Assembly: GCF_022834715.1 (NCBI RefSeq)
Contig: NZ_BQKC01000001.1
Location: 1,276,501 to 1,340,500, forward strand
Length of the DNA: 64,000 bases
From: Granulimonas faecalis
GTDB taxonomy: Bacteria > Actinomycetota > Coriobacteriia > Coriobacteriales > Atopobiaceae
Direction of reading: 5' to 3'
In this document: piece after piece, positions 11,076 to 16,663 of the stretch
Layout: every line of letters begins with the position of its first letter
Numbering within the stretch: the stretch's first letter is position 1
Made by a program: the position numbers and the translations under genes
Notes under the pieces: generated by a model
What the model saw: the letters and a program-made list of their open reading frames with translations, nothing else
Database searches by the model: none
Told to the model about the DNA's origin: nothing

Positions 11076-11875
11076 GGGGCGAGCCAGGCCACCGCGCCGT
11101 GCCGCCCGCACATGCCCCCCTCGGCGCGGTACGAGAAGAAGCGGTCCGTGGAGGCGGGCGTCGATATCTCTGGGTTCACGATGTTGCACGGGTCCATCCC
11201 TGCACTCACGAGCGTGTTCACGATGGCCGCGGCCAGCGAGAGGTGGCTGGCGTCGACCCCGACAATGCTACCAAACTCGGTTTCGAACCGATTAAGCAGC
11301 TCGGTCGACACCTCATAGTCACATCCCGCGATATGGGGGCCGAGGTAGGCCCGCACCGAGGACGGGGGCACCGGGGAGCCCTCGCACAGCGCCCCGAGCG
11401 CCTTGGCGGCTATGCGTGCGTATGTACCCTTCCAGCCCGAGTGGACGACGGCAAAGCCGTCGGGGGCCACGAGCACCACGGGGACGCAGTCGGCGTAGCA
11501 CAGGAGCACCGGCACCCCGGGGACGAGGCACACCACGGCGTCGGCCCCCTCGGCGGCCTCGGAGCGGGCCGCGGCCACGGCCGCGGGGTCGGCGGAGCGG
11601 ACGGTCACCACGCGGTCGCCGTGCACCTGGTTGGGGACCACGAGGGACCCGGCGATGTCGCCGGCCCCCAGGGCCGCCAGGGCGCGGGCGCGGTTCTCGG
11701 CCACGGCGGCGGGGTCGTCGCCCACGTGGTCGCCGAGGTTGAGGGATTCGAAAGGGGGCAGGGAGACACCGCCCGTGCGCTCCGTGAACGCGAACGTGAC
11801 CCTGCTCGGGCGACCGAAGTCGCCGAGCAGGGTCACGCCGTCGACGGTCCTCTCCACCAAGGAGGGGGCGCCCAT
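11072..11875 (-). CDS. pgeF: peptidoglycan-editing purine nucleosidase-type protein PgeF (laccase-domain, YfiH)
   Basis: The 267-residue product is a multicopper-polyphenol-oxidase-fold protein. VPNQVHGDRV, LLCYADCVPV and VHSGWKGT carry the conserved His-Cys-His zinc triad. Family members act on purine nucleosides or remove L-Ser wrongly placed in muropeptides. The start ATG shares one base with the ftsZ stop (TGATG at 11875), and its stop overlaps pstS by 4 nt. Location directly after ftsZ is widely conserved in Gram-positive bacteria. Confidence 0.93.
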   Translation of the reverse strand: MGAPSLVERTVDGVTLLGDFGRPSRVTFAFTERTGGVSLPPFESLNLGDHVGDDPAAVAENRARALAALGAGDIAGSLVVPNQVHGDRVVTVRSADPAAVAAARSEAAEGADAVVCLVPGVPVLLCYADCVPVVLVAPDGFAVVHSGWKGTYARIAAKALGALCEGSPVPPSSVRAYLGPHIAGCDYEVSTELLNRFETEFGSIVGVDASHLSLAAAIVNTLVSAGMDPCNIVNPEISTPASTDRFFSYRAEGGMCGRHGAVAWLAP

Positions 11876-12975
11876 CAGCCGCGGGCGCGCTTGAGGAAGT
11901 CGGGGATGTCGAACTCGCGGTCCCCGAAGTTGTTGGAGGCGGGCTTAGGGGCCGGGGCCGCGGCGCGCTTGGGCGCGGAGGCGCCGAAGCCGCCCATGTT
12001 GAGCTGGGGCTGCACGTTGCCGTCGTTGAAGCCGGTGGCGATGACGGTCACACGCACCTGGTCGCCGAGGCTCTCGTCGACCACGGTGCCGAAGATGATG
12101 TTGGCGTCGGCGTCCACGTTCTGGGCGATGACCTCGGCGGCGTCGTTGATCTCCTGGATGCCGAGGTCCTTGTTGCCGGAGATGGAGAGCAGGACGCGGG
12201 TGGCGCCGTCCACGGAGCTCTCGAGCAGGCGGCTGGAGATGGCCTCCTGGGCGGCGTCGGCGGCGCGGGAGTCGCCGGAGGCGAGGCCGATGCCCATCAT
12301 GGCCGTACCGGCGCCGCGCATGATGGTGCAGACGTCGGCGAAGTCGAGGTTGATGAGGCCGGGGACCGTGATGAGGTCCGTGATGCCCTGGGTGCCCTGG
12401 CACAGCACGTCGTCGGCCATGCGGAAGGCCTCGAGCATGGTGGTCTTCTTCTCGGCGAGGTCGAGCAGGCGGTCGTTGGGGATGACGATGAGGGTGTCGA
12501 CGTTCTCGGCGAGGGCGTCCACGCCGTCCACGGCCTGCTGGCCGCGCTTGCGGCCCTCGAAGGTGAACGGGCGGGTGACGACGGCCACGGTGAGGGCCTT
12601 GATGTCGTTCTTGGCGATGTCGGCCACGACGGGGGCGGCGCCGGTGCCGGTGCCGCCGCCCTCGCCCGCGGTGATGAAGACCATGTCCGCGCCGGCGAGG
12701 GCGGCCTTGATCTCGTCGCGGGAGTCCTCGGCGGCCTGCATGCCCACCTCGGGGTTGGCGCCGGCGCCAAGGCCCTTGGTGAGGTCGGTGCCGATGTGCA
12801 CCTTGATGTCGGCGTCGGAGAGGGCGAGGGCCTGGGCGTCGGTGTTCACGGCGACGAACTCGACGCCGCGGATGCCCTCCTCGATCATGCGGTTGACGGC
12901 GTTGGTGCCGCCGCCGCCCACGCCCACGACCTTGATGACGGCGAGGTAGTTGTTGGGGGTCTCGGTGTCCTTCAT
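11875..12975 (-). CDS. ftsZ: cell-division GTPase FtsZ
   Basis: FtsZ polymerises into the Z-ring at midcell. The 366-residue protein has the N-terminal [13 protein letters not shown] loop, the tubulin signature [17 protein letters not shown] (102-118), the T7 synergy loop NLDFADV and a short linker of about 35 residues. The C-terminal peptide DIPDFLKR binds SepF or other anchors. Glu105 before GGGTGTG is the actinobacterial form; most other bacteria have Met. The ATG at 12975 follows GAGGAGGAACC, a strong site. It is preceded by a 242-nt gap after ftsQ that may carry its own promoter, and followed without a gap by pgeF. Confidence 0.98.
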
Positions 12976-13217: not shown

Positions 13218-14339
13218 TCAACCATCCTGTGTGGGCAGTGAGCCGTCGGCGGACTGGTCGCCGTCCCCCGTCCTGGTACCGTCACCGGAGCCCTGGGAGC
13301 TGTCCCCCTGGGCCTGCGGGTCGCCCCCTCCCCCGTCGGCTGCCGGCGCCTGCACACCGCTGCCCTGGGCCACGGAGTTGCTCGAGACCCTACGGAAGCT
13401 CGGCTTGGCGGGGTTGCGAACGTTGATGTAGGTGAGCTGGTTGGGGTGCTGGGCCATGAGCTCGTTGACGACGGCCTCCTTCGACGAGATCTGGGAGGGG
13501 TCGCCGAGGCTCACCTCGATGCCGCTCTCGAGCACGCACGAGATGGCCTCCTCGCTCGAGGCCGAGTAGGACACCACCTGGTCGGCGAGGCCCTTGGTGA
13601 AGCCCTTCTGGTAGTCGATGACGCCGAGGATGGGGGCGTCCGTGGTCTTGGCACCGGCCTTGGGCGACACGGTGCCCGGCACGTCGCGGATGAGCAGGCA
13701 GCCCTCCTGGCGCGCGAGGGCGAGGGCTTGGTCGGCCAGGCTGTCGGAGCCGCCGGCAAGCTTGGCGGGCTCCACCCAGGTGCCGTCTGACGACAGGTAC
13801 CACGCGACGTTGCCGGAGCTCACGACCACGATGGCGAGGATGTCGCGCTCCGTCACGGTAATGCGGAGGCGGTCGGGGTACTCCCGCCGCACGCTCACAT
13901 CGGCGACCCACGGGTTCTTGGCCAAGCGCTCGGCGATGGCCCCGGTGTCGACGTTGAGGAGCGTGGCGCCGTCGGGCACGGCGGCCAGCTTGATGATGTT
14001 CTCGGCCGTGAGGTGGTCGGACGGCTCGGCCTCGATGGAGGTGGCCGTGAAGACGGGGGTCAGGCTCGCCGCGAAGAGAGCGCCCACCACGAGGCCGACG
14101 GCGACGAGGGCCGCGACGGCCCACTTGAGGGCGGCCGGCCAGGGGCGGCGCTTGTGGTCGGTGAGGCCGAGGCCCGCGACCGAGAGGCGGCCGACGGACT
14201 TGGTCTCGCGCGCGCTGCCCGCCGCCGCGAGGCGCCGGGTGGGACGGGGCGCGGGCGCCTGGCGCCGCCCCCTCGCGGGCCGGTCCGTGCGCCTACGACT
14301 GGAAGCCGAGGAATTTGACCTGCGGTTTGAGCCTGACAC
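13218..14339 (-). CDS. ftsQ: FtsQ/DivIB-type division protein
   Basis: FtsQ bridges early and late divisome proteins through an external POTRA domain. The 373-residue protein has a long basic cytoplasmic N-terminus (about 70 residues rich in Arg/Ser) and one membrane segment (about 72-94). The POTRA domain begins TATSIEAEPSDHLTAENI and includes NPWVADVSVRREYPDRLRITVTER, and a C-terminal region ends in a ~45-residue Gly/Asp/Gln-rich tail. The GTG at 14339 is the only plausible start and lies 47 nt inside the murB 3' end, a larger overlap than other junctions here. The order murB-ftsQ-ftsZ without ftsA is actinobacterial. Confidence 0.88.
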   Translation of the reverse strand: MSGSNRRSNSSASSRRRTDRPARGRRQAPAPRPTRRLAAAGSARETKSVGRLSVAGLGLTDHKRRPWPAALKWAVAALVAVGLVVGALFAASLTPVFTATSIEAEPSDHLTAENIIKLAAVPDGATLLNVDTGAIAERLAKNPWVADVSVRREYPDRLRITVTERDILAIVVVSSGNVAWYLSSDGTWVEPAKLAGGSDSLADQALALARQEGCLLIRDVPGTVSPKAGAKTTDAPILGVIDYQKGFTKGLADQVVSYSASSEEAISCVLESGIEVSLGDPSQISSKEAVVNELMAQHPNQLTYINVRNPAKPSFRRVSSNSVAQGSGVQAPAADGGGGDPQAQGDSSQGSGDGTRTGDGDQSADGSLPTQDG

Positions 14340-15210
14340 CCTTCGCCTCCTCCACGGTCTCCTGCATGCGGTGCATGAGCGCGAGCACGTCCACGGCGCG
14401 CGCCTGACGGTCGTTGACGATGTAGCCGGGGTCGAGCCGGCTCACCAGCGCGCCCCCCGACCGCGCGCCCCGGAGCCCCGCGTCGGCGAGGAGCCGGGAG
14501 GCCGAGAGGTCCGGCGGGTCCATGAAGACCTCGCCGGTGGAGGGGACGCCCATGGGGACCCTCCCCTTGCGGACGGCCAGCCGACGGTCCATGGCGCGGG
14601 CCACCTGGGGCTTGGTGGACGGGGCGAGGGAGAGCTCCACTTCGAGGACGGTCTCGTCGGCGGGGATGGAGGTCCGCCGGTAGCCCCAGTCGATGTCGGG
14701 CCCCTCGTGGCGGACGAGCCCCTCCCCCGGCTTGGCGCAGACGACGGCCCTCACGGCGGCGCCGATCCAGTGGTGGCGGCTGCCGGCATCCATGACGACG
14801 GCGCCCCCCACGGTCCCAGGTATGCCCGCGAGGTCCTCGAGGCCCGAGAGGCCGCTCTGATAGGCGGCGTTGACCACCTTGGCGAGCTGCACGCCGGCGC
14901 CCGCCGACACCGTCCCCCGCTCGACGTCCACCACGATGCGGGAGAACTCGCGGCCTAGGCTCACGATGCAGCCCTCGTACCCGTCGTCGGAGACGAGCAC
15001 GTTGGACCCCTTGCCGAGGACGGCCGTGGGCACGCCCTCCCGCCGGAGGGTGTCGAGGACCCGCGCCAACGCCGGGTAGCTGTGGGCGCAGCACGAGAGG
15101 GCGGCCGGGCCGCCCACGCGCAGCGACGTGCGCCGGGAGAGCGGCTCGTCCCGGCGCACGTCGGCGTCGTAGGCGCCGGACAGCGACATGAATGCATTGA
15201 ACAGGCTCAT
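14293..15210 (-). CDS. murB: UDP-N-acetylenolpyruvoylglucosamine reductase (MurB) with altered active site
   Basis: MurB reduces enolpyruvyl-UDP-GlcNAc to UDP-MurNAc using FAD and NADPH. The 305-residue protein has the FAD-binding segments RTSLRVGGPA (27-36), GKGSNVLVSDDGYEG (66-80) and GIPGTVGGAV (129-138), plus the substrate arginine in GYRRTS (176-181). The usual catalytic block G-S-V-F-(R/K)-N-P reads GEVFMDP (226-232), so Glu227 replaces the proton-donating serine. The C-terminal L-E-x-E-V segment, source of the catalytic glutamate, reads LKPQV (294-298). Fold and context make MurB certain, but activity is uncertain. It lies between murC and ftsQ and overlaps ftsQ by 47 nt. Confidence 0.9.
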   Translation of the reverse strand: MSLFNAFMSLSGAYDADVRRDEPLSRRTSLRVGGPAALSCCAHSYPALARVLDTLRREGVPTAVLGKGSNVLVSDDGYEGCIVSLGREFSRIVVDVERGTVSAGAGVQLAKVVNAAYQSGLSGLEDLAGIPGTVGGAVVMDAGSRHHWIGAAVRAVVCAKPGEGLVRHEGPDIDWGYRRTSIPADETVLEVELSLAPSTKPQVARAMDRRLAVRKGRVPMGVPSTGEVFMDPPDLSASRLLADAGLRGARSGGALVSRLDPGYIVNDRQARAVDVLALMHRMQETVEEAKGVRLKPQVKFLGFQS

Positions 15211-15259
15211 TGGTCTCCCGGGGGTGCGGTGGCGGCGCGTTTGAGGGGGAGGGGCGCCC

Positions 15260-16663
15260 TTAGGACTCGCGCTCCTTCATGAGCTCGATGAACTCGCGGC
15301 CCACCATGGTCACGTCGCCGGCACCCATGGTGATGAGGAGGTCGCCGGGGCGGACCTCCTCGGCGATGGCGGCGGCGATGGCGGCGCGGCCGGGGACGTA
15401 GCGGACGTCGCCCACCGAGCCGGCGGCCTCCACGGCCGACGCCACGGTCTTGCCGGAGACGCCGGGCACCGGCATCTCGCCGGCTGGGAAGACGTCCATG
15501 ACGAGCAGGGCGTCGGCGTCGTCAAAGGCATGGGCGAACTGCGGGGCAAGGGCCTGGGTGCGGCTGTAGCGGTGGGGCTGGAAGGCCACCACCACGCGGT
15601 CGAAGTCGAGGCCGGAGGCCGCGGCGAGGGTGGCGGCCACCTCGGTGGGATGGTGGCCGTAGTCGTCCACCACGGTGACGCCGGCGACGTCGCCCACGTG
15701 GGTGAAGCGGCGCCGCACGCCGCCGAACTCGGAGAGGGCCCGGGCGGCCTCGGCGATGTCGAGGCCCAGCACCCAGGCGACGGTGAGGGCCGCCGTGGCG
15801 TTGAGCTGGTTGTGGGAGCCGGGGTTGCCCTTGATGGTCACGTGGGCGAGCTGGCCGTCGGGGAAGCCCACCTCCATGGAGCTTGAGATGGAGCGGGTGG
15901 CGGCGTCCGGGGTGCAGACGACGTCGTTCTGGCCGCCGAAGCCGTAGGAGACCACGCGGGGGCCGGCGGCGCGGGCGAGCTCCACCACGTGGGGGTTCTC
16001 GCCGCAGCAGATGACGGTGCCGTCCTCGCCGGCCGAGGCCATGAACTGGGAGAAGGCCTCCTCGATGGCCTCGAGGCTGCCGTAATGGTCCAGGTGGTCG
16101 GCCTCGATGTTGGTGACCACTACGATGTCGGGGTCGAGCAGCAGGAACGACGCGTCCGACTCGTCGGCCTCGGCCACGTAGAGGTCGCCGGAGCCGTTGC
16201 GGCCGTTGGTGTCGAAGTCCTCCACGATGCCGCCGATGAGAAACGACGGGTCGAGGCCCATGTTGGCCAGCATCGTGGCCGTCATGGACGACGTCGTGGT
16301 CTTGCCGTGGGTGCCGGCGACGGCCACGGTACGGCGGCCGCGGGACAGCGCCGAGAGCATCTTGGCGCGGGGCCACACGGGGATGCCGAGCTCCTTGGCG
16401 CGCACCACCTCGGGGTTGGTCTCGGGCACGGCCGTGGAGGTCACCACGACGTCGGGGCGGTGCTCGTCGACCGTCTCGGCCCGGTGGCCGATGGCGACCT
16501 CGATGCCGGCGTCGCGCAGGTCGCGCACGTAGCGGGACTCCTTGAGGTCGGAGCCGGTGACCGCGCAGCCGCGCTCGTGGAGGACGAGGGCGATGCCGCT
16601 CATGCCCGCGCCGCCGATGCCGATGAAGTGGGCGCGCTCGAAGCCAAGCCCGTTGTCTGTCAT
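15260..16663 (-). CDS. murC: UDP-N-acetylmuramate--L-alanine ligase
   Basis: MurC adds L-alanine to UDP-MurNAc, the first step of stem-peptide synthesis. The 467-residue product has the N-terminal HFIGIGGAGMSGIALVL loop, the ATP site VAVAGTHGKTTTSSM (about 113-127), the Mg-binding EADESDASFL and the ligase signature DDYGHHPTEVAATL. The ATG at 16663 follows GAGAGGGG. It is separated from murG by 77 nt and from murB by 49 nt, all in the same direction. Confidence 0.97.
   Translation of the reverse strand: MTDNGLGFERAHFIGIGGAGMSGIALVLHERGCAVTGSDLKESRYVRDLRDAGIEVAIGHRAETVDEHRPDVVVTSTAVPETNPEVVRAKELGIPVWPRAKMLSALSRGRRTVAVAGTHGKTTTSSMTATMLANMGLDPSFLIGGIVEDFDTNGRNGSGDLYVAEADESDASFLLLDPDIVVVTNIEADHLDHYGSLEAIEEAFSQFMASAGEDGTVICCGENPHVVELARAAGPRVVSYGFGGQNDVVCTPDAATRSISSSMEVGFPDGQLAHVTIKGNPGSHNQLNATAALTVAWVLGLDIAEAARALSEFGGVRRRFTHVGDVAGVTVVDDYGHHPTEVAATLAAASGLDFDRVVVAFQPHRYSRTQALAPQFAHAFDDADALLVMDVFPAGEMPVPGVSGKTVASAVEAAGSVGDVRYVPGRAAIAAAIAEEVRPGDLLITMGAGDVTMVGREFIELMKERES

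Follow-up and report, generated by a model that had tools for sequence, protein, structure and literature searches.

A predicted catalytically dead MurB homologue in the dcw cluster of Granulimonas faecalis

The MurB homologue encoded in the dcw cluster of the window (the whole 64,000-nucleotide stretch of Granulimonas faecalis DNA analysed here) is probably a pseudoenzyme that has been kept for a non-catalytic role; by descent and fold it is a MurB, and by activity it is predicted not to be one. Its gene (14293..15210, reverse strand; 305 aa) has an ATG start and a TAG stop, and a Shine-Dalgarno-like GGGAG (15215..15219, reverse strand) lies just 5' of the ATG. The gene stands between murC (15260..16663, reverse strand; 467 aa), its upstream neighbour, and an ftsQ-like gene (13218..14339, reverse strand), its downstream neighbour; the cluster also contains ftsZ (11875..12975, reverse strand), homologues of which adjoin ftsQ in relatives. 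The GTG start of ftsQ (14337-14339) lies 47 bases inside the end of murB (overlap 14293-14339). This overlap is common to the window genome (G000), G002, G060, G104 and G241, and is absent from G170, G220 and several other relatives.

Fold and active site of the window protein

The window protein has the MurB domain architecture in Pfam (MurB_C, 72 bits; FAD_binding_4, 63.2 bits). Against NCBIfam it scores 162.9 bits with TIGR00179 (murB), above the curated cut-off of 144.5, and 238.9 bits with NF010480 (PRK13905, murB), below the curated cut-off of 259; because the first of these cut-offs is passed, automatic annotation may label the protein an active MurB. AlphaFold2, for which the input was the window protein and database loci, returned a confident MurB fold (pLDDT 95.0, pTM 0.89), and the model matches solved MurBs across its own full length (4pyt, Z 38.2, rmsd 1.8 over 300 residues; 1hsk, Z 36.2). 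The FAD-binding glycine motifs (GxGSN and GIPGxxGGA) are present, with G66, G68, G129, P131, G135, G136 and A137 in place, as are R178 of the YR motif and R214, and we infer that the protein binds FAD.

In an alignment to solved MurBs, Glu227 (GAG, 14530..14532, reverse strand) falls on the catalytic serine and Gln297 (CAG, 14320..14322, reverse strand) on the catalytic C-terminal glutamate. Neither serine, nor the cysteine of type IIb enzymes, nor the glutamate is therefore present; since ftsQ starts inside murB, codon 297 also belongs to the ftsQ frame. A preliminary description of this DNA had read these replacements correctly, as GEVFMDP at residues 226-232 and as LKPQV instead of LE-x-EV (residues 293-298 are RLKPQV), and was likewise right that the FAD motifs are intact. 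It had named two findings that would overturn its reading, a true catalytic serine elsewhere in the protein and glutamate as an ordinary variant at this position, and neither was found. The alignment to solved MurBs places no other serine of the protein where it could substitute, including within the loop VPSTGEVFMDP, and the serine two residues ahead of Gly226 is also present in active copies (PSCGSVF). Among 70 reference MurBs from outside the class, the serine column holds serine in 65 and cysteine in five, and the C-terminal glutamate occurs in all 70, so that the replacements in the window protein are not normal variation. The commonest serine codon at this position among copies from the family is TCG, from which GAG is two base changes away; a single sequencing error as the source of the GAG codon was rejected because two changes are needed and because the loss is common to related genomes.

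Three further near-universal positions are changed, namely Q218V in the QP motif (14557..14559, reverse strand), H260D in the S-x-x-H-x-x-F-x-x-N motif (14431..14433, reverse strand) and F263Y. In the MurB of P. aeruginosa, the equivalent serine and glutamate interact with the nicotinamide and the enolpyruvyl group (PMC3689657), and both half-reactions should therefore suffer in the window protein. We consider it very probable that MurB activity has been lost.

Loss and constraint among relatives

We searched 296 genomes of the class Coriobacteriia and 140 of the family Atopobiaceae, and extracted 121 dcw-type MurBs. Alignment at the serine position, a check proposed in the preliminary description, gave serine in 110 of these copies, sampled across the class, and neither serine nor cysteine in the other 11, all from Atopobiaceae; the copy of G309 was left out of the changed set as an alignment error, probably caused by a frameshift. 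These 11 copies, which are predicted to be inactive and are called dead copies below, are all full-length intact open reading frames. Residue 227 is glutamate in G000, G104 and G241, glycine in G002 and G060, alanine in G170, G202, G220, G236 and G355, and proline in G340. Glutamine at residue 297 is common to G000, G002, G060 and G104, while G170 has alanine and G202 aspartate; G241 retains Glu297, which suggests that the serine was probably lost before the glutamate.

In a tree of 50 dcw copies, built with ten active-site columns masked, the window copy forms one clade with those of G002, G060, G104 and G241 (support 99/94), and five further independent losses, to alanine or proline, lie outside it. 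The serine losses require six state changes, a number that the well-supported branches force to six and for which the 5-95% bootstrap range is 6-6. The hypothesis that all dead copies descend from one loss was rejected, as the one-clade constraint gave p-AU = 0.0005. This indicates that the catalytic serine was lost independently at least six times among dcw MurBs of the Atopobiaceae. For the change to glutamate, we infer a path from serine through alanine, which consists of single base steps from TCG. Some dead copies are on long branches.

The drift extends beyond the two catalytic residues. We defined 40 positions that are at least 95% conserved in the 70 reference MurBs together with 45 copies of MurB2, the second MurB described below, with dcw copies excluded from the definition. 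At these positions the dead copies carry five to eight changes, compared with zero to three in the 110 active dcw copies, and the changes in active copies of Atopobiaceae are nearly all at N141, I241, L240 or I130. Those in the dead copies affect H260 (10 of 11), F263 (seven), E297 and M140 (six each), and Q218, Y177 and S257 (four each); the FAD glycine motifs are retained, as are R178 and R214. A rank test gave P = 5e-9 (with the serine excluded), although this significance is overstated because related copies are treated as independent; it is safer to argue from the six separate origins.

Purifying selection after the loss of catalysis was found in two close pairs that share a loss, G002/G060 (52 synonymous and 10 nonsynonymous changes; dN/dS 0.055, with 0.11 for MurB2 of the same pair) and G220/G236 (dN/dS 0.17); in five active dcw pairs dN/dS is 0.04-0.16. 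The window copy itself was compared over distant pairs only, where synonymous sites are near saturation, and its dN/dS of 0.33-0.45 exceeds that of MurB2 (0.25, G000/G002 pair). It thus appears to be constrained, more loosely than MurB2.

The dcw proteins of this family also share an N-terminal segment, SLFNAFMSLSGA in the window protein (residues 2-13; 15172..15207, reverse strand), in which residues 3-10 are predicted to form a helix. Atopobiaceae dcw MurBs start S-x-FNAYxxLSG and those of the Collinsella family start similarly, G-L-FNAVMxLSG; the motif is not shared by MurB2, the reference MurBs or other families. It is kept in nine of the 11 dead copies and lost in G355 and G340. Identity over this segment is the same between dead and active copies as among active copies (0.56 in both), whereas it falls from 0.69 among active copies to 0.48 between dead and active copies in the serine loop, and from 0.71 to 0.56 over residues 256-275. 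A kept helix beside a drifting active-site loop would fit a protein retained for contacts and not for chemistry.

The second MurB

Apart from the window murB, a single MurB_C match occurs in the window genome (2.23 Mb in two contigs). It lies at C1:592660-592956 (reverse strand), 0.7 Mb from the window murB and outside the dcw cluster. It belongs to MurB2, the C-terminal half of a 621-aa fusion protein (G000:C1:592645-594507, reverse strand; L095:8643-10508) of which the N-terminal half is a GFO/IDH/MocA oxidoreductase. The MurB2 half carries SAGSTFKRP and LEPEV, and hence both catalytic residues. Each of the 11 genomes that carry a dead dcw copy also has an intact MurB2. In each of the 16 family genomes examined that have a single MurB, murC is followed by ftsQ without a murB match between them, and the remaining MurB, where fetched, is of the MurB2 kind; as these relatives have lost the dcw copy and live with MurB2, it is judged able to supply UDP-MurNAc alone. 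Among sampled genomes with a dcw MurB only, 17 of 17 keep the serine, arginine and glutamate. The preliminary description had suggested that another murB in the genome might do the work while the window copy has a different role. The first half of this suggestion is supported, given an intact MurB2 and relatives that live on it alone; the second is favoured indirectly, by purifying selection and the conserved N-terminal helix.

Among the 140 family genomes, the GFO-MurB fusion was confined to those with a dead dcw copy (G000, G002, G060 and G104) or with none (genus g6, that is G092, G285 and G302, and partly G098 and G303); it occurs only where the fusion is the sole intact MurB. Long frames at MurB2 in G062 and G241 were rejected as fusions, being chance GC-rich frames with no similarity to the oxidoreductase. 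Two other unusual forms of MurB2 were seen: in G136, a relative within the order, it is in one frame with an upstream domain that by eye resembles a radical-SAM-linked protein (L181:1492-3192, reverse strand), and in G168 it has a long Ala/Gly/Glu-rich insertion in the FAD-binding half, with catalytic motifs intact (L182:1-1809, forward strand).

Competing explanations and known MurBs

We propose that the lineage came to hold two MurBs, the ancestral dcw copy and a paralogue, MurB2, located elsewhere, and that MurB2 would have sufficed for UDP-MurNAc. In the window lineage, the dcw copy lost its serine (to glutamate, probably via alanine) and, probably afterwards, its partner glutamate became glutamine; MurB2 is fused behind the oxidoreductase domain. 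The dcw protein has retained its fold, its FAD glycine motifs and the lineage-specific N-terminal helix, under purifying selection where this is measurable, and most likely now acts without catalysis. Loss of the essential catalytic residues is what would be expected of a pseudoenzyme, and a selected non-catalytic role for the dead copy seems likely to us. Its type would most likely be docking, scaffolding or service as a regulatory subunit, near MurC and FtsQ or of MurB2. In Caulobacter, MurB is reported to localise like MurG, MurC, MurE, MurF and MraY (White and co-workers, cited in PMC6420597, which also discusses Mur complexes), and a non-catalytic role is plausible for this reason. As a counterpoint, several genera of Atopobiaceae have deleted the gene, and the role is hence dispensable over evolutionary time. 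More tentatively, and with somewhat less than an even chance of being right, dcw MurBs of the Atopobiaceae, perhaps also of the Collinsella family, may do more than catalyse and, in a second role without chemistry, link precursor synthesis with division, partly via the N-terminal helix. If so, the repeated loss of their chemistry once MurB2 was able to take over would be a natural separation-of-function experiment.

The gene could instead be a functionless, dying remnant that is heading for deletion, as has happened in other genera. Repeated active-site loss and complete deletion inside one family, the long branches of some dead copies and the looser constraint over distant pairs of the window clade agree with this reading, but we regard it as unlikely, as every dead copy has a full-length open frame, the close pair G002/G060 with its common dead site has a dN/dS as low as that of active copies, and the helix and FAD motifs are conserved in a confidently predicted fold. 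Slightly less likely again, the protein might have become a flavoenzyme that acts on a new substrate, with FAD retained and the enolpyruvyl pocket reshaped; the intact FAD motifs and fold and the altered substrate-side residues would suit it, but the replacements at residue 227 (Glu, Gly, Ala and Pro) vary among independent lineages and inside the window clade, which looks like relaxation and not like one new pocket.

The preliminary description had also raised the idea that Glu227 serves as the acid in place of the serine, in which case the window protein would still function as a MurB, though its active site has changed. Glutamate is able to donate protons, Glu227 is common to three genera (G000, G104 and G241), and the serine column can change, as the cysteine of type IIb enzymes, and of five of the 70 reference copies, demonstrates. 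We nevertheless find the idea improbable. The partner Glu297 has become glutamine and Q218, H260 and F263 are altered; G002 and G060, to which the window genome is closest, combine Gly227 with the same Gln297 and otherwise similar losses; the five other independent losses went to alanine or proline; the genome has a complete second MurB; and, as the serine and glutamate both touch the nicotinamide in the solved complex, both half-reactions should be impaired. Least probable of all is that murB is kept only for the ftsQ start in its 3' end and for translational coupling. The overlap shared by five genomes speaks for this, and coupling could contribute to keeping the gene, but it leaves unexplained the constraint across the whole protein (305 codons in G002/G060), two dead copies (G170 and G220) have no overlap, and relatives have removed murB.

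MurB is an essential cell-wall enzyme, and antibiotic development has made it a target. In this genome annotation would label two genes as MurB, of which one is very probably no reductase, and inhibitor or essentiality work on these bacteria should be directed at the fused paralogue. At least six independent inactivations inside one family, beside outright deletions, offer a natural experiment on whether Mur enzymes have structural roles in the division machinery. Our search, mainly of literature available without subscription, found neither a MurB pseudoenzyme nor a pair of MurBs described for Coriobacteriia; the window protein would be a natural MurB pseudoenzyme, and Atopobiaceae would have produced such proteins independently at least six times.

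Compared with known type II MurBs (4pyt; S. aureus 1hsk; L. monocytogenes 3tx1), the window protein is alike in its full-length fold (Z 36-38), FAD glycine motifs and YR-motif arginine; it differs in having Glu for Ser, Gln for Glu and VP for QP, in the changes at His260 and Phe263, and in its extra conserved N-terminal helix. The E. coli MurB mutant S229A (1uxy), the subject of a kinetic paper by Benson et al. (1997) that PMC3689657 cites, lacks the same serine, but its change is single and engineered, whereas the loss in the window protein is natural and accompanied by several others. The type IIb MurB of Thermus caldophilus (2gqt/2gqu; 38% identity with the window protein in a structural alignment) also has a natural change at the serine position; however, its residue is a cysteine, reported as the proton donor (PMC3689657), and not a glutamate, and in the window protein the partner glutamate is lost as well. 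MurB2 of the same genome shares the MurB domain, with 37% identity over the aligned part; unlike the window protein, it has an intact active site, is fused to an oxidoreductase and lies outside the dcw cluster.
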